Shown here: positions 10,168 to 43,456 of the stretch, one piece after another
Numbering within the stretch: position 1 is the stretch's first letter
Layout of the letters: each line of letters begins with the position of its first letter
Assembly: GCA_018901755.1 (NCBI GenBank)
Contig: JAHIDZ010000006.1
Span: forward strand, 1-48,420
Length of the DNA stretch: 48,420 nucleotides
DNA from: Nanobdellota archaeon
GTDB lineage: Archaea > Aenigmatarchaeota > Aenigmatarchaeia > Aenigmatarchaeales > Aenigmatarchaeaceae
Direction of reading: 5' to 3'
The notes under the pieces: generated by a model
Told to the model about the DNA's origin: nothing
Seen by the model: only the letters and a program-made list of their open reading frames with translations
Database searches by the model: none
Translations under genes and position numbers: made by a program

Positions 10168-10260
10168 TGGTGGGTCGGACAGGATTTGAACCTGTGATAT
10201 CTGCCTTTCTAATCTTTCGATTGTAAGGGCAGCGTCTTAACCGAGCTGGACCACCGACCC
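10168..10260 (-). tRNA. tRNA-Val (TAC) with a 15-nt intron at position 37/38
   Basis: Acceptor GGGTCGG/CCGACCC, D stem GTC/GAC, anticodon stem CTGCC/GGCAG, T arm ACAGG-TTCAAAT-CCTGT, discriminator A and encoded CCA (10168-10170). The anticodon loop CTTACA-A (anticodon TAC) is interrupted by 15 nt at 10207-10221. The intron forms a GAAA-tetraloop hairpin; the central helix CTTA/TTAG has one U-U mismatch, so the BHB is slightly relaxed, with cuts CA^A and AA^A. Position 37/38 is the canonical archaeal intron site. Confidence 0.93.
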
Positions 10261-29495: not shown

Positions 29496-30575
29496 TCATA
29501 TCAATACTTCTTGCGCTTGCTGTTCTAGACAGCTTTTGGGTTGAAGCACAACCCCGTCCACAAAGACATGCTTCATAGACCTATTATACATATTTTTTGT
29601 TGCATTATAGTCAGCATTAACTTGGTAGCCACAGTTTTTGCAGATAAATAATCCCTGATTTTTCCTAATCCCAATTTCTGAACATCTTGAACAAGTTTTG
29701 CTTGTTCCGTGTTCATTCATTCTTATTACAGGAATACCCGACCAGCTTGCTTTGTGTTCAATTAATTGAGTTAATTTTAAATGTGGCATGTTATTTACTA
29801 TTCTATTGAATCGTTTTCCTTTCTTTTTGGCAGATTTTCTAATGTCTTTCAGGTCTCCGATTACTATCACAGAATCAGTTTTGGTAGCTAAGACTGCAAT
29901 TTCATTAGAGATATCCTGGAGAATCTGATTTACTTTATTCTGTTCTTTGTGCCCAACCTGCTTGACTTTCTTCAATAGTTTCTTGTTTCCTAATCTTTTT
30001 CTTAACCAACTATAATGTCTTCTTATTCCTCTAATTTTCGTTCCCATAAATATCGGTCTTCCATTGAACAACACAGTTGCCATAACCTTCTCTCCGATAT
30101 CCACAGTAATAATGTTAGAGCATGATTTCATTTGAACTTCTTTTTTAACAACAACATAAATTTCAAACCATTCTTTATTTCCTTTCGTTTTCTTGATTAT
30201 TTTAGACTCTCCAATTTTATAATCATCTGGAAATTCACAGTGTGGTTCTACCGGAAGCCATATTCCGCCCCATTTAGATTTAACTGGAACTTTAATCCAA
30301 CATTTAGAAAGTTTATTATCTGTTTTTTTAACTTGCATAACCTGATTCGATAATGACATGGCGAACTTATGTTTTATTCTTTTACTTATCCACCTTGCTT
30401 GACATTTGTAAACAGAACGAATCGGGATTTTATCAGCTATCCAGTCTAAATCTCTTTTTTCCAATTCAATAAAATCCTGAAAATTGCTCCATTCTTCATT
30501 AAGAGCATTCAGTTTTGATTTAGTTAGATTAATAACTCTGCATCTGACTGTCTTAGCTACCATCATACTATTCAT
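29496..30575 (-). CDS. tnpB: TnpB (IS605/IS1341-type OrfB), RNA-guided nuclease family
   Basis: A 359-aa TnpB. RuvC motif I is 'VDIGEK' (D159), motif III 'NADYNATKNM' (D322), and a zinc ribbon sits between (C295-x2-C298, C312-x2-C315). Motif II reads 'VIVIGDLKDIR': the usual Glu is Gly240. An alternative acid could be E273 in 'LIEHKASW'. No TnpA partner is present, so this is an IS1341-type solo element. TATA spacing suggests Met4 or Met5 as the true start. It sits between the pilus operon and aIF1A on the strand opposite to aIF1A. A guide RNA would be expected to overlap the 3' end near 29496. Confidence 0.9.
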   Translation of the reverse strand: MNSMMVAKTVRCRVINLTKSKLNALNEEWSNFQDFIELEKRDLDWIADKIPIRSVYKCQARWISKRIKHKFAMSLSNQVMQVKKTDNKLSKCWIKVPVKSKWGGIWLPVEPHCEFPDDYKIGESKIIKKTKGNKEWFEIYVVVKKEVQMKSCSNIITVDIGEKVMATVLFNGRPIFMGTKIRGIRRHYSWLRKRLGNKKLLKKVKQVGHKEQNKVNQILQDISNEIAVLATKTDSVIVIGDLKDIRKSAKKKGKRFNRIVNNMPHLKLTQLIEHKASWSGIPVIRMNEHGTSKTCSRCSEIGIRKNQGLFICKNCGYQVNADYNATKNMYNRSMKHVFVDGVVLQPKSCLEQQAQEVLI

Positions 30576-33434: not shown

Positions 33435-34484
33435 TCAAGCGAGTTTGTTCGTTAATTCCTTTCTTAATTTGTAAGTATTCGCCCATTTAGCATAAGCAAA
33501 CCACCCATCTACGGATTCCATTATTTTTTCTCTAGAGATTTCATTATTTCTATATATTACGTCAAAATTTGATAATTTGTTTTTAAATGTTCTGATATTC
33601 TTTTTGACCGGTAACCTATAATAATAAAACATTCTATAGCCAAGCAATCCTATCCCTCTATGAAGTGGATAAACCTGCGATTTTTCTTCGTGAAGTTCTA
33701 TTTTTAATTTAGATTTAAGAAAATCATTAATACTTTCTCTATGATGTAATAACATCTCTTTATTTTTATCTAGAATAACAAAATCGTCTACGTATCTCAG
33801 ATAACATTTTGCTCTTAATTTATATTTAACAAAATAATCCAATTCATTGAGATAAACATTCGCAAAGAATTGACTTGTTAGATTTCCTATTGGCATTCCT
33901 TTATCTGAATAGTTTGAATTTTCATCTAAAATTATTTGTATCAGAAATAAAACCTTTTCATCTTTAATCTTCTTTCTTAATATGTTTATCAGAACATCAT
34001 GATTAACTGTATCAAAATAGTGTTTTATATCTGCTTTCAGAACATATCCAGTTATCATATTATTGTCTTTGGCATTTTTAACCAATCGTCCGTTGTTAGA
34101 GACCTTTCTTTGAAAGTAATGAAATCTATTTATCGCCGCCAAACTTCCCTTTCCTTTTCTATTTGCGTACGAATCATAGATAAATAATTCTTCAAATAAC
34201 GGTTCAGTTATATTGCAGATAGCATGATGAACGACTCTATCGCGAAATGCAGAAGCGTGAATTACTCGTGTCTTTGGATCTCTTATTATAAATCTCTTTA
34301 ATGATTTCGGTTTGTATGTCTTTTTTTCAAGTTCATATTTAAGTTGTAGCAATTCATTGTTTAAGTTTTCCTCAAATTTTATGACGTACCATTTTTTGGA
34401 TTTGCCCTTTCTGGCTTTTCTATAAGCTGACTTAATATTATCCATCGCGCATATCTTTTCATATAAATTATCATAGGTTTTCAT
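33435..34484 (-). CDS. Diversity-generating retroelement reverse transcriptase
   Basis: A 349-aa reverse transcriptase. Domain order: 'IIRDPKTRVIHASAFRDRVV' (RT motif 1-2), 'ADIKHYFDTVNH' (first Asp at 152), 'GMPIGNLTSQFFANVYLNEL' (197-216) and 'LRYVDDFVIL' (YVDD 231-234). The I-G-x-x-x-S-Q form (199-205) in place of the Q-G-x-x-x-S-P of other reverse transcriptases is the hallmark of DGR enzymes, which copy a template RNA with adenine-directed errors. It is the last gene on the minus strand after target gene and template repeat, the standard DGR order. No Avd accessory protein is recognisable nearby. Confidence 0.95.
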   Translation of the reverse strand: MKTYDNLYEKICAMDNIKSAYRKARKGKSKKWYVIKFEENLNNELLQLKYELEKKTYKPKSLKRFIIRDPKTRVIHASAFRDRVVHHAICNITEPLFEELFIYDSYANRKGKGSLAAINRFHYFQRKVSNNGRLVKNAKDNNMITGYVLKADIKHYFDTVNHDVLINILRKKIKDEKVLFLIQIILDENSNYSDKGMPIGNLTSQFFANVYLNELDYFVKYKLRAKCYLRYVDDFVILDKNKEMLLHHRESINDFLKSKLKIELHEEKSQVYPLHRGIGLLGYRMFYYYRLPVKKNIRTFKNKLSNFDVIYRNNEISREKIMESVDGWFAYAKWANTYKLRKELTNKLA

Positions 34485-34530
34485 AAATATCTTCTGTTGG
34501 CGATCTAAGTTACTGGCGACGCCATTGTCA

Positions 34531-34547
34531 ATCGAGCTATTTGAAGT
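34531..34547 (-). other. BHB intron 3 in the DGR template RNA (17 nt)
   Basis: Central helix CGAG/CUCG with four Watson-Crick pairs, bulges AA^A and AU^U, a short inner CU/AG pairing with a six-nt loop. Splicing makes GAG-AAT-GAC-AAT; the variable repeat has GAG-TCT-GAC-GAT, so the two bases that seemed unexplained in the variable repeat are simply mutated adenines. Confidence 0.82.
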
Positions 34548-34572
34548 TTCTCGTTCAACGGCGAATTCGCAT

Positions 34573-34593
34573 ATATGCTGATCTTCAGATCAT
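34573..34593 (-). other. BHB intron 2 in the DGR template RNA (21 nt)
   Basis: Central helix AUGU/GCAU (one G-U pair), bulges CA^A and AU^A, inner hairpin UGAUC-UGAA-GAUCA with five perfect pairs and a tetraloop. The splice joins GTCA to ATGCG, inside an AAT codon, giving the intact GTC-AAT-GCG that matches GTC-CTT-GCG in the variable repeat. Confidence 0.85.
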
Positions 34594-34609
34594 TGACATT
34601 CGGACGAGC

Positions 34610-34642
34610 ATAACGACAGCTATCGCTAATTGATAAACTGTT
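34610..34642 (-). other. BHB intron 1 in the DGR template RNA (33 nt)
   Basis: Central helix AACG (exon) with CGUU (intron), four Watson-Crick pairs. Bulges AG^A and AU^G, cut after the second nucleotide in each. The inner helix ACAGUU-AUC with GAU-AGCUGU has about nine pairs with one bulged U and loop AAUUAGC. The splice joins GAACGAG to GCTCGTCC, exactly as in the variable repeat. Confidence 0.88.
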
Positions 34643-34673
34643 CTCGTTCCTGTCCCAATTGGACCTGAAAGAA

Positions 34674-34908
34674 AGCTCTGTAGCCTGTTCATCAAAGAGC
34701 GTATGCTCCACTGAAGCTTCTCGAAAGTCGCTTCTGTATTTCATGGCTAAATGAAAAAATCCTAATGCACTATGAACAAGCGTGTAACCTAGACTAATGC
34801 CAGAAGAATATTTACGACGAATTACCCCCCCCCATTTCAGAAAGCGGAATATCTATTTGCATAGAAGAACTAAGAAGCAAAACTATTTAATCCTTCTTGA
34901 CTGTCCAA
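34674..34908. other. Non-coding spacer between DGR target gene and template repeat, with a C9 tract
   Basis: No gene is supported here. On the minus strand it holds a TATA-like TTAAATAG (about 34884-34891), a run of nine G (plus-strand C9 at 34825-34833), rare in such AT-rich DNA, and a hairpin-capable stretch (AGAAAGCT/AGCTTCT-type arms, about 34670-34722) just upstream of the template repeat. Confidence 0.5.
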
Positions 34909-35622
34909 CTAAGCTTTTTTCAAAGTGGCGACGCCATCGTCAGACTCGAGCAACGGCGAAGGCGCAAGGACAGACGGACGAGCCTCGTGCCTGTCCCAAT
35001 CGGACCAGAAAGAAGCGACTTTTGTTGGAACTAAAACACCTGTTTCAGTTTCTACAATATCTAATTTATCATCTTTCATTGTGAATGCATGTGCTTTCTG
35101 TTCAGTCACTTTCTGAATAACTTCTAAATTGTGCATCCAATAATCATTACCGACACTTTTGAAGTTTTTATCTGAAAGCATTAAATCAACAGATTCTTGC
35201 GTTTTTAGGTGTCTTACTGGCTCTAACTCTTTAGATAATTTCTGATAAGTCAGATCCTGAATAACTCTATCTGTATTTGCTATAAATCCTTTATTTTGAT
35301 AATCTTTTAATTTATTAGGAACCTTTCCGCTAGTCATCAAAATTGCATATCCTTTTTCTTCCAAATCATTCGCAAGTCTTGTTCTATCTACTAGAGAAAG
35401 GATTTCATCAACTTCTCCAATTTTTTCCTTTACAGAAAAATCTGTTTCAAAATTAACACTTCCATTATAAACATCAGCTTCAGAATTATAACATTCTCCA
35501 GCTCTAAGAAAATCAAGAGCTTTGCCATTAACATTTACAGGGTTCGTTTTACCAGTAAATCTAAATTCGCCACCTACAATTTTTACCTGTGGATTCGGCA
35601 TCACATAGGTTGTATTTGTCAT
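34909..35622 (-). CDS. DGR target (variable) protein
   Basis: A 237-aa protein whose last ~30 codons are the variable repeat. The C-terminus has the DGR C-type-lectin-like pattern 'FWSDWDRHEARPSVLAPSPL' followed by 'GVAT'. The chosen ATG (35620-35622) is placed by a TATA box, TTTATATA at 35645-35652, exactly 26 nt upstream, so a longer frame reaching 35739 is rejected. No signal peptide or membrane helix is visible from this start, so the protein would be cytoplasmic unless exported by another route. The N-terminal 200 residues are mixed alpha/beta and I do not recognise them. Confidence 0.85.
   Translation of the reverse strand: MTNTTYVMPNPQVKIVGGEFRFTGKTNPVNVNGKALDFLRAGECYNSEADVYNGSVNFETDFSVKEKIGEVDEILSLVDRTRLANDLEEKGYAILMTSGKVPNKLKDYQNKGFIANTDRVIQDLTYQKLSKELEPVRHLKTQESVDLMLSDKNFKSVGNDYWMHNLEVIQKVTEQKAHAFTMKDDKLDIVETETGVLVPTKVASFWSDWDRHEARPSVLAPSPLLESDDGVATLKKA
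34926..35014 (-). repeat. DGR variable repeat (VR)
   Basis: The 89-nt 3' part of the target gene, aligning without gaps to the intron-free template. Substitutions relative to the template: single changes in four codons and double AA changes in five, 14 in total, all at template A. Eight of the changed codons are AAY in the template. The invariant stretches (GATTGGGACAGG, GCTCGTCCG, TCGCCGTTG, GGCGTCGCCA) contain the scaffold residues. Confidence 0.93.
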
Positions 35623-35737
35623 ATAAAGTATTACTACCGATAAGTATATAAACCTATGTTTTAACCATTTGAAAATACGATAACTCGTATTCATAAGAGA
35701 ACAAACGTTTATAAAAAAGTAACTAACAATGTTATGC

Positions 35738-36010
35738 ATGTCTAATAATTTTACTTATGAGAATAATTTTTTATTCAAAAAAGATTCAACAATGATAAAC
35801 AATGTGCCAAACCTATATAGCGCACTGATTAAAGAATCAGATTTTCACAAAAATGTTCCGTTACACAATACTCCGTATATCAAAGGAAGAATGTTAAGTA
35901 AATATTTAGATAGCATTCTAATTAAATTTCCAGAATACACGAAGAATAATCATCTGAATATGAGAAGAGCACTCAAATACTACATGAAACAAAGAACAAC
36001 AAGACAGTGA
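35738..36010 (+). CDS. Small uncharacterised protein divergent from the DGR target gene
   Basis: A 90-aa basic protein, helical at its C-terminus ('MRRALKYYMKQRTTRQ'), no family recognised. The ATG at 35738 is chosen over 35729 because the TATA box tttataaa (35708-35715) predicts transcription starting at about 35738. It is divergent from the target gene and could be part of the retroelement or an unrelated gene. Confidence 0.45.
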   Translation: MSNNFTYENNFLFKKDSTMINNVPNLYSALIKESDFHKNVPLHNTPYIKGRMLSKYLDSILIKFPEYTKNNHLNMRRALKYYMKQRTTRQ

Positions 36011-36049: not shown

Positions 36050-37144
36050 TTGGTGTTAATAAGAGTAATTTGTAGGGTAATTTCGCGTAATCTTGAAGAA
36101 GAAATGAAAAATCTAACACATTGCCTTACAATATCTAATAATATTGTAAATTCTAAAAACGAGGGAGCTCTTGAAACTTCCAAACTAATAAATCTGGCAA
36201 ATGAAAACAAGGCGTACATAATTGGTGCTAGTTTCGGAGACGGTTGCAATCTAGCTAATGAATTAAAATGGCAGATAACAGATGGTAATAAAAATCTAAA
36301 AAGATTAAAATATTCTCGGGAATATCTCTCTAGCATTAATCATTTGTTTCAAAAAGAATTCGGAATCTCTGGTAAAATAAATAAATTAGACGGTAACATG
36401 TATGTTCTCATAATCAATAATAAATGGTTCTCTAGAGCAATCAACTATTTTTATAATGTTCCCTTTGGAAAGAAAACAATTCTTGAGATTCCAAAAATAT
36501 TCAATAATAATAGATTAAAAAACTCTTTCTGGTCTGGAATCATCGATACTGATGGCCAAGTATTTGATAACTCGGAAAACATACAACTATGTATGAAGTC
36601 TAAAAAACTTATGGAAGAATTTCATGAATATCTAACTTTATTGGACATAGTACATAATTTCAGACACTATAGAGATGAATACTATCTCCTTGTTCCAGTG
36701 AGAAGCTTCAAAAAATTCAATGATATATTCAGAATAATTCATCCATGTAAGAAAATGCTGCTCATTAATAATCTAAATAAAGGAACCAAACATAAAATTT
36801 ACATAGGAAAAACTGACAAAACATTGAAGCAGTTTATGTCAAATAATAAATATATCGCAAAAACAGAAAATAATTATACCAAAATCGGAGTTCATAACGG
36901 AAAATTTATAAAAATTCCACATATTAAAGATTTAGATAGTGTAGCATCCAGAATACGACCGAGGGATAGAAAGATTTATATTATAAATAGAAGTAAAATA
37001 GAATCTAGAATTACAGCAGAAGAGATAGAAAAGATATTTGAAATAAAATCATACTATAACAAAGGCAAAAATACATATTACTTCAACTCAGATGTATTAT
37101 GTGATATGTTCAAATACCTATACAGGTATGAGAAACCGTGGTGA
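36050..37144 (+). CDS. Free-standing LAGLIDADG homing endonuclease upstream of top6B
   Basis: A monomeric two-motif LAGLIDADG endonuclease. Motif 1 is 'YIIGASFGDGCNL' (residues ~56-68), motif 2 'FWSGIIDTDGQV' (160-171), each followed by the usual beta saddle. No intein splicing blocks are present. The frame opens with TTG at 36050; ATG at 36107 is a more likely start. Its TGA overlaps the top6B ATG (TGATG), so top6B is translationally coupled to the parasite gene. It occupies the place where Dim2 would normally run into top6B. Confidence 0.85.
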   Translation: MVLIRVICRVISRNLEEEMKNLTHCLTISNNIVNSKNEGALETSKLINLANENKAYIIGASFGDGCNLANELKWQITDGNKNLKRLKYSREYLSSINHLFQKEFGISGKINKLDGNMYVLIINNKWFSRAINYFYNVPFGKKTILEIPKIFNNNRLKNSFWSGIIDTDGQVFDNSENIQLCMKSKKLMEEFHEYLTLLDIVHNFRHYRDEYYLLVPVRSFKKFNDIFRIIHPCKKMLLINNLNKGTKHKIYIGKTDKTLKQFMSNNKYIAKTENNYTKIGVHNGKFIKIPHIKDLDSVASRIRPRDRKIYIINRSKIESRITAEEIEKIFEIKSYYNKGKNTYYFNSDVLCDMFKYLYRYEKPW

Positions 37145-40100
37145 TGAAAATAAATGAAATAAAAACAGCCGAACAGCTAGCGAAAGAGCAACGTGAAATA
37201 AGCGTGGCGGAATTTTTTGAAATCTTGTAAGCATATTGTTTGCAGGACAAAGTAAAAACCGTCATTTACTTGGTTTTGATAACCCAATGAAAGCTCTAAT
37301 GATTGCTGTCAAAGAAATGGTAGATAACTCGGTAGAATATTCAGAACCAGTCTTAATTAAAGATAAAGGAGAAATAAAATTAGTTCAAATAGGAGAATTT
37401 ATAGATAAAACCATTGTCAAAAATGGCCATAAGATAGAAGATGGCGTAGAATCTTCTAAAATTAACAACTGCGAAGTATTAGTATATGATGACAAAACAT
37501 TTAAAATGTCATTTAAACCAGCAAGTAAAGTGCATAGACATAAATTAAGAGATAAATTATTTGAAATAGAAACAGTTGGTGGAAGGAAGGTAACAACAAC
37601 TGGGTCGCATTCTGTTTTTACATTAAAAGATGGAAAAATATCGTCTTTTCCTGTCAAAAATCTTAAGATAGGAAATTATATAATAGTTCCAAGGAAAGGA
37701 ATTGAATTAAACAACATAAAGAATATTATTGATTTGAGAGAAGAGATAAAGAGATTGCCAAAAAATATAAAGGAAAAACTGGTTCTGCATGGTATAGCAA
37801 ATAAATTTAATAATATACCAAGAGATTGGAAAAGATTTGATTACATTCCTTATTTATATTTTGAAGAAAATAAATTAGAGATTCCTGAAGAAACCCTATT
37901 AAGTGTAAATAAAGGAAGAAGTAAAATACCTGTTATTATCAAAGTAACAAAAGATTTTATGAAACTATTAGGTTATTATGCGGCTGAAGGCACATGCTAT
38001 GATAAGTGGATAACATTTAGCTTTGGTTCACATGAAAAGGAGCTAATAGAAGATACAGAAAAATGTTTAATTAATGTATTTGGTGAAAATATAAATTTCA
38101 ATAGAATATTCGCCCACCCAACTGCAATAACAGTAAAAGTCTATTCTGAGCCCTTATCTTTAATCTTTAAACATATTTTGAAAACCGGTAGCAAATCCTA
38201 CAACAAAAATGTTCCATCATTAGTTTTTAATGTTTCAAATAATTTGCAAAAAGAGTTCTTATCAGCATATATAGCCGGAGACGGATATGTGAGACATGGA
38301 AAAATAACAGTAGCTACTGTCAGCAAGGAATTATCAGTAGGTTTGCAATATATTTTATCTTTAAATGGAATAGCATATAGCATATTAAAAAAAGATATTT
38401 GTGAGAGGGAATTTCCTGGCGGATATAAATCAAAATGCAGAGAAAGTTATTATTTGTATATATATGGAAAAACTTTATCTGATAACCAATATAACTCCCC
38501 GCTATCAAGAATACCTTTAGATGAATCTGGGTTTAGAGAAATTTTATTACAACTAAATCCATTAATCAGTTATAACAATCCTCATTATGCAAATTATAAA
38601 AGATATAAACATTTTACAATTGATGGCGCTATCTCTGATTTGGATGAGGCTATTGAATATAGAAGGAATGGTGTAGGATTAAAATTAAAGAAAAATATTA
38701 GTTTATTTAAATCATTATTATTGGGAGACATCGGAGTATTGCAAATAAAAAATATTAAAGAAGTTGAATCTGAACATTCATTTGTATATGATTTTTCAGT
38801 TCCTGGTTCAGAAAAATTTGTAGGCGGAAGAGGAGCAATATTTCTACACAACTCATTAGATGCATGTCAGGAATCTGGCATTCTTCCTGAATTAACTATT
38901 AAAATAAAGGAACTAAGCGACGATAGAGCACGTGTATCAGTTGAAGACAACGGGCCCGGTATAGTAAAGGAACAAATTCCTAGAGTTTTCGGAAAACTAT
39001 TATATGGTTCTAAATTTTACAACATGCGTCAAGGACGTGGTCAGCAAGGTATTGGAGTCAGCGCCGCATTATTATATTCACAGTTGACAACAGGAAAACC
39101 AGCTATAGTTATTTCACGTACTGCAAAGGGTAAAACTGCGCATGAAATGCATATCCGAATTAACACTTCTAAAAATGAACCAGAAGTAATAAAAGATGAA
39201 AAATATGAAGGAAACTTCAATGATCATGGAACTTATGTAGAAATGGAAATGGAAGGAAAATATAGAAAAGGCGATAGATCGGTAGATGAATTCATTAAAC
39301 AAACGGCAATAGCAAATCCTTTCGCCAAATTCGTATATCATGTTAATGGAGAAAAAACAACATACTCAAGAATAGTTGAAGAATTACCGAAACCTCCAAA
39401 ACAAATTAAACCGCATCCACAAGGAGTTGAAATGGGTGTATTTGAAAAAATGACAAAAATGACAAAAGCAAGAAGTATTGCAGGATTTCTATCAGCTGAT
39501 TTTACAAGAGTTAGTCCAGGAACAGCTAGAGAAATATTAAAATTATCTAAAGTTAATCCAAATATGAAATCAGAAAACTTAACAAGAGAAGAAATGGAAA
39601 AGGTTTGGAGAAATTTGCAAAAAGCAAAATTAATGAAACCTCCAATGGATTGTCTATCTCCAATCGGAGAAAGTGTTTTGGAGAAAGCTGTTAAAAAAGA
39701 TTTAAAAGTTGAATACACTGCAGGTATAACTCGTTCACCAGATGTATATCGTGGAATGCCATTTCAAATTGAAGTGTGCATCGGGTATGGTGGTAACTTA
39801 AATCCGGCAGGAACTGCACAAGTAATGCGTTTTGCTAATCGTGTACCACTATTATACCAAAGTTCATCATGCGCAATAACAAAAGCAGTACAAGACATAG
39901 CTTGGAAATCTTATCACGTAGAACATTCAAATAATAATCCTACTGGTCCTTTAGTTATAATAGTTCATATGGCGTCTGTATGGATACCTTATACATCTGA
40001 GTCAAAAGAAGCAATCGACCCATATGATGAAATAGAAAAAGAAATAAAACTGGCAATACAAGATTGCGCTAGAAAATTAAAATCATATTTAGCAGGAAAA

Positions 40101-40307
40101 CATCGTAGATTATTAGAAGGTAAAAGAAAAGGACTATTTGAAAAATACTTGCCAGAAATAGCAAACAATTTATCATTATTAAGCGGAGAAAAAGACGCAG
40201 ATATTAGAAAATATTTAGAAAAATTATTAAGCAAGGGCGTAATTGAAGAGAGTGAAAATGGTGAAAGCGAAGGAGAAATTGAATCAGCTGGGGAAGAATC
40301 TAGTTAA
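37144..40307 (+). CDS. top6B: DNA topoisomerase VI subunit B, interrupted by an mRNA intron and an intein
   Basis: The GHKL-ATPase subunit of topoisomerase VI. Exon 1 (37144-37221) encodes 26 residues ending 'QREISVAEFFE'; then a 32-nt intron; exon 2 (37254-40307) resumes 'KNRHLLGFDNP', giving the family's conserved FFEKNRHLLGF. In exon 2 a 508-aa intein (37329-38852) splits the ATP-site N box (VKEMVDN / SLDACQ). After both are removed the protein is 535 aa with 'VEDNGPGI' (Mg/ATP site), 'GRGQQGIGVSAALLYSQ' and the transducer domain. If unspliced, the frame stops at TAA 37228. The end overlaps top6A. Exon 1 uses GC-richer codons than exon 2. Confidence 0.93.
37222..37253 (+). other. 32-nt BHB intron in top6B pre-mRNA
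   Basis: The stretch breaks the frame (32 nt, in-frame TAA) at a point where removal rebuilds GAA-AAA-AAC-CGT. Structure: outer UUU/AAA; bulge AA^A; central helix UUUG (37216-37219) with CAAA (37248-37251); bulge GU^A; inner helix UCUUGUAA (37223-37230) with UUGCAGGA (37240-37247), eight pairs including two G-U; nine-nt loop. This is a standard tRNA-endonuclease substrate. Protein-gene BHB introns are rare in archaea; cbf5 in Thermoproteota is the best-known case. Confidence 0.9.
37329..38852 (+). other. Intein with LAGLIDADG endonuclease in top6B
   Basis: A 508-aa intein beginning with Ser ('SVEYSEPVLIKDKGEIKLVQ', block A) with block B 'VTTTGSHSVFTL' (the His of TxxH), endonuclease motifs 'MKLLGYYAAEGTC' and 'FLSAYIAGDGYV', block F 'FVYDFSVPGSEKFVGGRGAI' and the terminal 'FLHN' followed by Ser (+1). 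It is in frame with both exteins and sits at an invariant active-site motif, the typical intein location. Ser1 rather than Cys1 is permitted. Confidence 0.93.
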
Positions 40308-41331
40308 TCAAGCTAAGAAAGGCGAAAATCCTAACATGGATATTCCGATAAGAGCTTTGTCTAATGTCAATTATGATCAGAAAAAAAGAATGATCATGAT
40401 GGGAAATAGAAGTTCGAAGCGTTATTTGTTTAATATTGCCCATATTAAAAAATTCTTACAAACAACGGAAATAGCTGCTAATGTTCAAAAATTATTAGTT
40501 GCTGGAAAGCATGTATCATTAAGACAGGCTTTCTATATGATGCGTAGAACGATACCTGGCACTCAAATTGACGTCGTTGATGCTCAAGAAGAATCAAATA
40601 AAGCTGTTGAAGATTTAGAATTAGTAACCGGCTTCTCGAGAGAAGAATTAAATATTAATGCTAACAAAAACGGTTCTGCTGCTGGTAAAATTATAATTAA
40701 AGATAAAGGAGACATAATCGACTGGTCTAAACTTGGCTCAGGTGGTTGGGCCATTCCTTCTAACACTGAAGATATTGAATTCAAAAAAGTTGATGCTAAA
40801 TTTATCATTTACATGGAAAAAGCAGCCATCTGGGAAAGATTACATGAAGATCGAGTATGGGAAAAATTAAATTGTATTATAATTTCATCACAAGGTCAGG
40901 CGACGAGAGGTATAAGAAGACTTTTACGAAGATTGAATGATGAATATAAACTGCCGGTGTATGTACTTGTAGATGAAGATCCTTGGGGATATTATATTTA
41001 TTCTGTTTTGAAATACGGATCAATCGCATTAGCAAACATCTCTGAGAAATTAGCTATACCTAGCGCTAGATTAATCGGTTTAACATGTAATGATGTTGAA
41101 AAATATGGATTGAAGAAGTATTTGATAAGATTCCAAAAAGTAGACGAATCTCGTTTAAATCAGATTAAAAATTACGAATGGTTCCAGTCTAAAGAATGGC
41201 AAAAGGAATTAAAATCAATGAAAGAACTTAAAGGAAAGGTAGAACTTGATGCCCTTGTGGCAAAAGGAGTAACTTTTATATCTGATGTATATTTACCAGA
41301 AAAATTAAAAAATAAAGACTTTTTGGACTAA
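40243..41331 (+). CDS. top6A: DNA topoisomerase VI subunit A (Spo11-like)
   Basis: The DNA-cleaving subunit. Catalytic Tyr98 lies in 'SLRQAFYMMRRT'; the Toprim metal site is E192 ('YMEKAAIWERL') plus D244/D246 in 'VLVDEDPWGYYI'. Length 362 aa is normal. The start overlaps top6B by about 65 nt (Met6 at 40258 is a good alternative). The last ten codons (41299-41331, EKLKNKDFLD) differ in codon choice from a second copy of the same tail at 42501-42533, evidence that the adjacent homing-endonuclease element replaced the gene's end. Confidence 0.96.
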   Translation: MKRVKMVKAKEKLNQLGKNLVNQAKKGENPNMDIPIRALSNVNYDQKKRMIMMGNRSSKRYLFNIAHIKKFLQTTEIAANVQKLLVAGKHVSLRQAFYMMRRTIPGTQIDVVDAQEESNKAVEDLELVTGFSREELNINANKNGSAAGKIIIKDKGDIIDWSKLGSGGWAIPSNTEDIEFKKVDAKFIIYMEKAAIWERLHEDRVWEKLNCIIISSQGQATRGIRRLLRRLNDEYKLPVYVLVDEDPWGYYIYSVLKYGSIALANISEKLAIPSARLIGLTCNDVEKYGLKKYLIRFQKVDESRLNQIKNYEWFQSKEWQKELKSMKELKGKVELDALVAKGVTFISDVYLPEKLKNKDFLD

Positions 41332-42458
41332 TTGCCTTTAAAAAGATATTCAATAAATTCTCTATCATAAATAAAAATCTTTGTTGTTCCTATCCTAACG
41401 CTTTTTATATTTTCAAGTATACTCTCTTCTGAATAATTTGAATAATTAGAAAGTGTTTTTAATTGATTTATTGTTATAAGATTATTTCCGGACAAAACAC
41501 GACAAATATTCCCTTGCCACGAATTTGTTAAATCCGCGATATTCCTCTGAGTTAAACTGATACAACCAAAAAATCTCTTTCTAAATTTATTATTCAGCTT
41601 ACAATAAACTTTTCTCGTATATAGAATTTCGTCAAAAATATTCTTCTTTCTATCACATCTATCAAATAGTCCAACTTTCCATAATTTTGAATAATTCGAC
41701 CATTTAGTAATTATTATTTCTGCTCTATTACCGGTTCTTTCCTTATATTTTGATTCTATATTTTCTAGATTTAAGCATTCGATACAATAGTTTCTTAGAC
41801 TGTGTTCTTTTAGAGGGTTATATGCAAATCCAATGTAATTTAGAAAATTTTCTTTTTTGTTGAATCCAATAGTTCCCTCGGCCGCAAAATAACCTCTAAG
41901 AAAACCTCTCCTCAGAATAACATTCTCTTTAAATTTTATTAGCAAGCAAGCAATCATATTCTTTAAAAATATTCTAAAAATAGTGCTATTAATTTGAATT
42001 GTTAACATATCATTTTTGATTCTATTTGACTGCTTCAATTTAAACTTCTCTGAACAAACACCTAATATATTTGACCATTTCTTTTTAGAAACGCTTCCAT
42101 CACCAATTCTATAAGTTATTGTCAATGTCATCTTATCTAGTGGGATATTCATTGTTTTTACAAAGAACTCAAGCATAAATTTTATTATATCCTCATCCTT
42201 ATTTCCAAATGAACTATGTCGTAGATCTCTTTCGGTTAGTTTTCCATCTCCGATATAAAGTCCAATTGCTTCAGCAAAACTTCCGTTCAATTCTATCTGT
42301 TTTGGTAATATAATCGATTTTGGATTTGATCCAGATTTGCCAAATATTTTAGATGATACCTTTATTTTATCGCCCAATTCTTCAATACTAAATTTCCGAT
42401 TTCTAAAAATATCTGGTATAAATTCGTTAGTTTTTATTTTCATTGAATATACTGGCAT
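41328..42458 (-). CDS. LAGLIDADG homing endonuclease inserted at the 3' end of top6A
   Basis: A 376-aa protein with two LAGLIDADG motifs, 'FAEAIGLYIGDGKL' (61-74) and 'GFLRGYFAAEGTIGF' (185-199), and a C-terminal helix-turn-helix-like part ('TQRNIADLTNSWQGNICRVL'). It is on the strand opposite to top6A and their stop codons overlap (CTAA/TTAG). TATA-like sequence (about 42470-42480) precedes the start. The DNA between the two top6A tails is 1.2 kb and contains essentially only this gene, so it is the mobile unit. Confidence 0.88.
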   Translation of the reverse strand: MPVYSMKIKTNEFIPDIFRNRKFSIEELGDKIKVSSKIFGKSGSNPKSIILPKQIELNGSFAEAIGLYIGDGKLTERDLRHSSFGNKDEDIIKFMLEFFVKTMNIPLDKMTLTITYRIGDGSVSKKKWSNILGVCSEKFKLKQSNRIKNDMLTIQINSTIFRIFLKNMIACLLIKFKENVILRRGFLRGYFAAEGTIGFNKKENFLNYIGFAYNPLKEHSLRNYCIECLNLENIESKYKERTGNRAEIIITKWSNYSKLWKVGLFDRCDRKKNIFDEILYTRKVYCKLNNKFRKRFFGCISLTQRNIADLTNSWQGNICRVLSGNNLITINQLKTLSNYSNYSEESILENIKSVRIGTTKIFIYDREFIEYLFKGN

Positions 42459-42688: not shown

Positions 42689-43456
42689 CTACTTTATCTT
42701 ATGATTGCCAACGTTTATATTGATTTCCTTTTCGAATTTCTCAAATTGTTTCCGGCCATGAATTGTAAATTTTATAGGTATAGTTTTAATATCATCTTTT
42801 CGTATGCATTTTGCTTTATAGGTATAAACGCGACTGCATCTAATTCCAAAATGTTTAATCATGTTATTTCTTATATCACCAACAAATTCAAAACCATTAT
42901 CTTTAAGATAATCTGCCTTATAGAACTGCAAACCTATGAAAAAATCCTTTTTATAGAATGAACCTTCACAGAGATAAGCTCTTCTAACAAATTCTCTAAA
43001 ATATTCTTTATCTTCTAATATCCATTTTGGAATTCTGAATTCTTTTAGAACCTTTGCGCCGTGAGGGACACCAACTGTTAATAATAATCTGGCAAGTGGT
43101 TTGCAATTAACTCCATAAATAAATGATGTTCCGAATTCATTTCCATCGACGTGCCTTATTTTTCCTTTTATGCCAAATAAATTATATAGAATCTTCTCAA
43201 ATCTCATTAACTCTTTTGGGTATTTTGAAATATAATCAAACCTTAGTTTTGGATATCCCTGTAAATGACCGTCGCACATCAGATCTGCTACCAATCCTGA
43301 CAATTCTTTTGATGCATACAACGGAAACCATTTTCTATACTTTTCTAATATTTCTTTTCCGTGCTTTTCTGATTTGTAAGTCTTCAGAACATCTTTAAAA
43401 TCTAACAACTTCATAACCAAATAATAGAAACTTTCTTCAGCATAAACTTCCTTCAT
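42689..43456 (-). CDS. LAGLIDADG homing endonuclease upstream of tRNA-Phe
   Basis: A 255-aa protein with motifs 'LSGLVADLMCDGHL' (52-65) and 'FREFVRRAYLCEGSF' (153-167). It is co-directional with, and ends 9 nt before, the intron-rich tRNA-Phe gene, so both may share a transcript from the promoter at 43478-43490. Many archaeal LAGLIDADG proteins are encoded in or near tRNA/rRNA introns; whether this one targets the tRNA gene is unknown. Confidence 0.85.
   Translation of the reverse strand: MKEVYAEESFYYLVMKLLDFKDVLKTYKSEKHGKEILEKYRKWFPLYASKELSGLVADLMCDGHLQGYPKLRFDYISKYPKELMRFEKILYNLFGIKGKIRHVDGNEFGTSFIYGVNCKPLARLLLTVGVPHGAKVLKEFRIPKWILEDKEYFREFVRRAYLCEGSFYKKDFFIGLQFYKADYLKDNGFEFVGDIRNNMIKHFGIRCSRVYTYKAKCIRKDDIKTIPIKFTIHGRKQFEKFEKEININVGNHKIK

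Follow-up and report, generated by a model that had tools for sequence, protein, structure and literature searches.

Organization of the retroelement

The DNA analysed here (the window) is a stretch of 48,420 nucleotides from an archaeon of the phylum Aenigmatarchaeota (GenBank assembly GCA_018901755.1, contig JAHIDZ010000006.1). Its reverse strand carries a diversity-generating retroelement (DGR) with the features listed below, where exons and introns of the template are named according to the reading developed in the following sections and arrows mark the proposed cuts.

33435-34484 (-), DGR-type reverse transcriptase (RT), 349 aa, with IGNLTSQ and YVDD motifs
34514-34673 (-), template repeat (TR), 160 nt unspliced, differing from the variable repeat only at adenines once three inserts are removed
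34643-34673 (-), TR exon 1, 31 nt
34610-34642 (-), TR intron 1, 33 nt, BHB AACG/CGUU, bulges AG↓A and AU↓G
34594-34609 (-), TR exon 2, 16 nt
34573-34593 (-), TR intron 2, 21 nt, BHB AUGU/GCAU, bulges CA↓A and AU↓A
34548-34572 (-), TR exon 3, 25 nt
34531-34547 (-), TR intron 3, 17 nt, BHB CGAG/CUCG, bulges AA↓A and AU↓U
34514-34530 (-), TR exon 4, 17 nt, its 3' end being the inverted repeat TGGCG-T-CGCCA
34675-34804 (-), RT-16 RNA (Rfam RF03019), structured RNA directly 5' of the TR
34909-35739 (-), target (variable protein) gene, 276 aa, no family match
34926-35014 (-), variable repeat (VR), insert-free, 89 nt, at the 3' end of the target gene

The RT matched Pfam RVT_1 (9.4e-20) and PHROG 1423 (reverse transcriptase; 3.6e-116), its top match in the phage collection was the DGR RT of the archaeal virus ANMV-1 (39%), and in a phylogenetic tree it grouped with archaeal DGR RTs, within the DGR clade. 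The TR is located 29 nt upstream of the RT gene, and the VR lies in frame at the 3' end of the target gene, as in other DGRs. No Pfam or PHROG match, and no informative PDB sequence match, was obtained for the target protein when a C-type lectin or Ig fold was sought.

The match to RT-16 (64.6 bits, against a gathering threshold of 50) ends 2 nt before the TR, and the same RNA adjoins the 5' end of the TR in most archaeal relatives too, which indicates that the TR is part of a structured non-coding transcript and suggests that archaeal DGR template transcripts have RT-16 as their 5' domain. Neither the TR nor its introns are included in the Rfam model, which ends where the TR starts. A bacterial locus (L111) was found to have RT-14 around 30 nt upstream of its own RT.

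Inserts in the template repeat

Equal length of TR and VR is not usually stated as a defining trait of DGRs; the variant feature of this element is that the TR has 160 nt and the VR 89 nt, and that they become equal only after splicing. A first-pass annotation of this DNA had attributed the difference to three inserts of 33, 21 and 17 nt. We re-derived their coordinates, and the same three inserts were recovered by an independent spliced-alignment program. Their removal leaves 89 nt that align with the VR without gaps, and all 14 mismatches are then at TR adenines, again in agreement with the initial description and with the adenine-confined changes by which DGRs are recognized. Adenines occupy 23 of the 89 positions, and the probability of all 14 mismatches falling on them at random is around 1e-10. 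The spliced TR can be read in the frame of the target ORF; the AAY codons previously described at the changed positions account for most of the mutated codons, among which there is one AGG.

With the junctions placed as the adenine rule demands, base pairing joins the exon 4-mers AACG, AUGU and CGAG to the intron 4-mers CGUU, GCAU and CUCG, confirming the three helices that had been proposed. All three introns have 4/4 central pairs, two 3-nt bulges and a cut after the second bulge base, and their inner helices consist of 6, 5 and 2 bp in introns 1, 2 and 3, respectively. When exons were kept fixed and introns were shuffled, a 4-bp helix at an adenine-compatible cut in all three had P = 7.5e-5, and no case was obtained in 200,000 shuffles if inner helices of at least 2 bp were added. 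Direct repeats make the cut position of intron 2 ambiguous, and the adenine rule permits one or two alternative cuts for introns 1 and 3; the BHB motif is obtained with only one cut at each intron. In minimum-energy folds of exon-intron-exon segments the central helix was present for introns 2 and 3 and absent for intron 1. Over all loci, such folding did not bring out BHB structure reliably, the central helix appearing in only 21 of 40 local segments, which weighs against the reading. Group I and group II introns were ruled out by size, since the inserts found in this element and its relatives (15-58 nt) compare with a core of several hundred nt or an encoded protein; the Rfam search of the region returned RT-16 only, with no group I/II core.

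Related elements and controls

Relatives of the RT were present in 30 of the 156 genomes of the same phylum. Two of these are identical in sequence to named records of Candidatus Aenigmatarchaeota, which establishes the phylum. Single-sequence scans of the genome and viral collections yielded no relatives and a search with an alignment of relatives did, and the RT was absent from genomes of the same genus and from most of those of the same family. Readable TR/VR pairs were obtained for 20 loci, counting the window and leaving out L046, which contains runs of N and aligns poorly; several loci of the phylum gave no pair despite direct spliced alignment, mostly at contig ends with the VR or the TR off the contig. 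The comparison with sibling genomes that had been recommended revealed template inserts in 19 of these 20 loci, L055 having none, and no insert on the VR side in any of them. The 39 template-only inserts are 15-58 nt long, with one to three per intron-bearing template, and after their removal 313 of the 320 mismatches over all loci are at adenines.

A BHB motif, scored as at least three of the four central pairs plus an inner helix of at least 2 bp, was found at an allowed junction in 38/39 inserts, with a mean of 2.46 and a maximum of 8 in 2,000 intron shuffles. All 39 have at least three central pairs and 28 have the four; the other 11 helices contain one non-standard pair of four. Spliced TRs could be aligned with each other, and the inserts cluster at a few shared sites, mainly alignment columns 94 (18 loci) and 63 (nine loci), with lineage-specific sites at columns 42, 45, 47, 50, 58 and 97. 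The introns of the window occupy columns 47 (intron 1, in common with L042 and L056), 63 (intron 2) and 94 (intron 3), the window being counted in the figures given for the last two. Some introns at shared sites are recognizably homologous in sequence. In the central and inner helices at column 94, covariation reached 0.884, compared to 0.290 after shuffling, a value that none of 500 shuffles attained, and 97.6% of the cells were paired, the figure being 17-35% when partners were slid by 1-3 bases.

These data leave a negligible chance that the inserts are artefacts of assembly or sequencing, a concern already raised in the first-pass annotation, since genomes from independent projects have inserts at the same sites and the insert helices show compensating base changes.

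In the RT tree the intron-bearing elements cluster without forming one clade, and the deepest archaeal branch is L055, which lacks introns. Most relatives retain an intact RT frame. What had been presented as a single unusual element is a trait of the whole lineage. In four loci (L037, L038, L044 and L047) an uninterrupted reading frame runs from the unspliced TR into the downstream RT; translation of the TR precursor was considered as a general feature and discarded, these four being the loci with such a frame.

Outside the phylum, 93 control pairs (31 from bacterial and 62 from viral DGRs) analysed by the same procedure yielded seven apparent inserts in the TR; none of them had a BHB motif, and for six the VR showed a compensating gap of about the same size. 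In a named archaeal set with 25 readable pairs, BHB inserts were limited to two Aenigmatarchaeota records and L073, and about a dozen archaeal loci from outside Aenigmatarchaeota, mostly at contig ends, gave no TR/VR pair even by direct spliced alignment. In L073, a record labelled as Woesearchaeota (isolate nzgw54), the DGR template contains a BHB intron of 39 nt, located at the commonest of the Aenigmatarchaeota sites; this could correspond to mislabelling, transfer or an older origin. Altogether, the 39 introns in 20 loci, the covariation, the shared sites and the controls lacking inserts of this kind strongly support the original proposal of BHB introns in a DGR template.

The main competing explanation is that the RT skips structured hairpin inserts during cDNA synthesis, with no splicing of RNA. 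Most inserts do fold into hairpins, and direct repeats of 1-4 nt, which would favour template jumping, are present at 30 of 40 junctions. However, the remaining 10, including those of introns 1 and 3 of the window, lack a direct repeat for exact slippage, and the product is exact in 39 of 39 cases; moreover, a covarying 4-bp helix between exon and intron, flanked by two 3-nt bulges, corresponds to a substrate of the tRNA-splicing endonuclease EndA and not to a plain hairpin, and bacterial and most other archaeal DGRs lack such hairpins. We therefore regard hairpin skipping as very unlikely.

Information flow from template to target

The first-pass annotation had also concluded that the current VR derives from spliced RNA. 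This cannot be deduced from the window alone, because the introns could postdate the last homing event, but it does follow from the comparison between species, in which each VR was examined for the substitutions of its own template. In loci sharing an intron site, the VR matches the non-adenine exon substitutions of its own TR in 4916 of 4945 cases (a count in which locus pairs are not independent). Examples with three shared sites are the pairs L037 and L038 (12/12) and the window and L056 (21/21). The shared sites, along with VRs that follow substitutions arisen in their own TR after divergence, imply that retrohoming from intron-bearing templates has taken place since the species diverged, and at the level of sequence they show a transfer of information from these templates to intronless VRs.

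This rules out a recent insertion of the introns. It could otherwise be thought that they were gained after the last retrohoming, that the VRs were made from an older intronless template and that the element is inactive or decaying, all of which would be compatible with the sequence of the window by itself; with TR exons that have since diverged between species sharing the sites, intact RT frames in most relatives and mismatches almost only at adenines, such a late gain is scarcely credible.

A second, remote VR was located in the relative G089 (L274:1588-1698, contig C7). This VR, on a different contig from the L038 element, aligns with the template of that element once spliced, with 16 of 21 mismatches at adenines, and lacks all three introns. 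Two observations that would have spoken against the proposal were looked for and not obtained: none of the 20 local and one remote VRs retains an insert, and no intact 89-nt template exists elsewhere in the assembly, which is 91% complete (around 9% of the genome is missing from it).

The absence of insert-retaining VRs is also relevant to another possibility, namely that the inserts are optional coding segments and that the unspliced template is used as well, giving rise by alternative splicing to longer variable regions in frame. Several traits of the introns would agree with this: 30 of 39 have lengths that are multiples of three, most length differences between homologous introns are of this type as well, and interior stops in the VR frame number 2, versus 10.6 expected by shuffling (P = 0.001, uncorrected for relatedness). 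A larger depletion (2 versus 18 and 22) was discarded as biased by conserved intron ends, the lower figure being that obtained with the ends removed. On the other hand, several templates have introns that break the frame or contain stops, including the 17-nt intron of the window, and 11 of 17 tRNA introns of the same genome are also multiples of three, so that the length signal may be partly non-coding. We consider the regular use of unspliced templates rather unlikely. The length and stop signals would fit selection for frame upon intron retention through leaky splicing, and we take this as a lead only.

Proposed mechanism

The reading that we favour, with a probability of about 0.92, is that the template is made as a precursor with three BHB introns, which would be spliced by EndA and the ligase RtcB before mutagenic copying. 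The template RNA, with the RT-16 domain first, would be transcribed as a precursor containing the three short introns; EndA would cut at six sites and RtcB would join the exons; the error-prone RT would then copy the spliced template, miscopying adenines, and the resulting intronless cDNA would replace the VR in the target gene. Both enzymes are encoded by the host, whose genome contains genes for one protein of the EndA family (178 aa, PF01974 1.6e-26) and RtcB (PF01139 1.6e-158). It also has around 17 intron-bearing tRNA genes, with introns of 12-45 nt, several of them with the same BHB motif. From the sequence data we infer that EndA and RtcB are responsible for splicing, which would take place ahead of reverse transcription and be required for diversification.

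One of these genes, tRNA-Val(UAC), is located in the window at 10168-10260 (-); it contains a 15-nt BHB intron (CTTA ca↓a...TTAG aa↓a) and was missed by a default ARAGORN run.

A plausible benefit of the introns is that they would block homing of the cDNA into its own template, since the target alone offers the cDNA an unbroken stretch of homology. A broader role, in which the introns mark the template as non-self and tie diversification to tRNA splicing while leaky, frame-preserving retention adds loops, is a tentative idea that we would hold to be possible and somewhat unlikely.

Relation to known systems

Archaeal DGRs are known from the virus ANMV-1 and from the DUSEL4 nanoarchaea (PMC4372165). 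The element of the window resembles these and BPP-1-type DGRs in its DGR-clade RT, the adjacent TR, the VR at the 3' end of its gene, the adenine-specific changes and the AAY codons, and differs from them in that, here and in its relatives, one to three BHB introns interrupt the TR, which exceeds the VR in length. With the BHB introns of archaeal pre-tRNA and pre-rRNA, which are substrates of EndA, the template introns share the 4-bp helix, the two 3-nt bulges and the cut after the second bulge base; they measure 15-58 nt, in a genome that is likewise rich in tRNA introns. In this case, however, the host RNA is the template of a retroelement and splicing is recorded in the DNA of the target gene.

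An RNA intermediate is already accepted for DGRs, so the earlier suggestion that this locus offers natural proof of it is supported but only confirms what was established. In work of Guo et al. in 2008 (Mol Cell), tagging of the BPP-1 template with a self-splicing intron reportedly led to intronless homing products and proved the RNA intermediate. That tag was an artificial group I intron, whereas the introns considered here are natural, much shorter and probably spliced by proteins. No intron in a DGR template is described in the subset of published DGR papers that we searched. Both ingredients are known, while their combination, its spread and the record left in target genes appear to be new.

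These elements would link protein-spliced archaeal introns with RT-driven diversification of proteins, systems between which no connection is known, and add a retroelement RNA to the proposed substrates of EndA. Natural VRs would constitute a DNA record of RNA splicing in vivo in uncultured archaea, and the route from template to target can be tested by following the introns. If the introns do shield the template from its own cDNA, this would be a new answer to the discrimination between template and target in DGRs. From a practical point of view, DGR searches that do not allow long one-sided gaps between TR and VR would cut short or overlook such elements across an entire phylum.

Other features of the window

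Other elements were observed in the same stretch of DNA. The gene for subunit B of topoisomerase VI, at 37236-40307 (+), is split by an intein that carries a LAGLIDADG domain, and three more LAGLIDADG proteins are encoded near the topoisomerase VI genes, at 36050-37144 (+), 41328-42458 (-) and 42689-43456 (-), which are apparently free-standing homing endonucleases or intron relics. A TnpB-like protein with a Cas12f1-like TNB domain (PF07282, 1e-19) is encoded at 29496-30575 (-).
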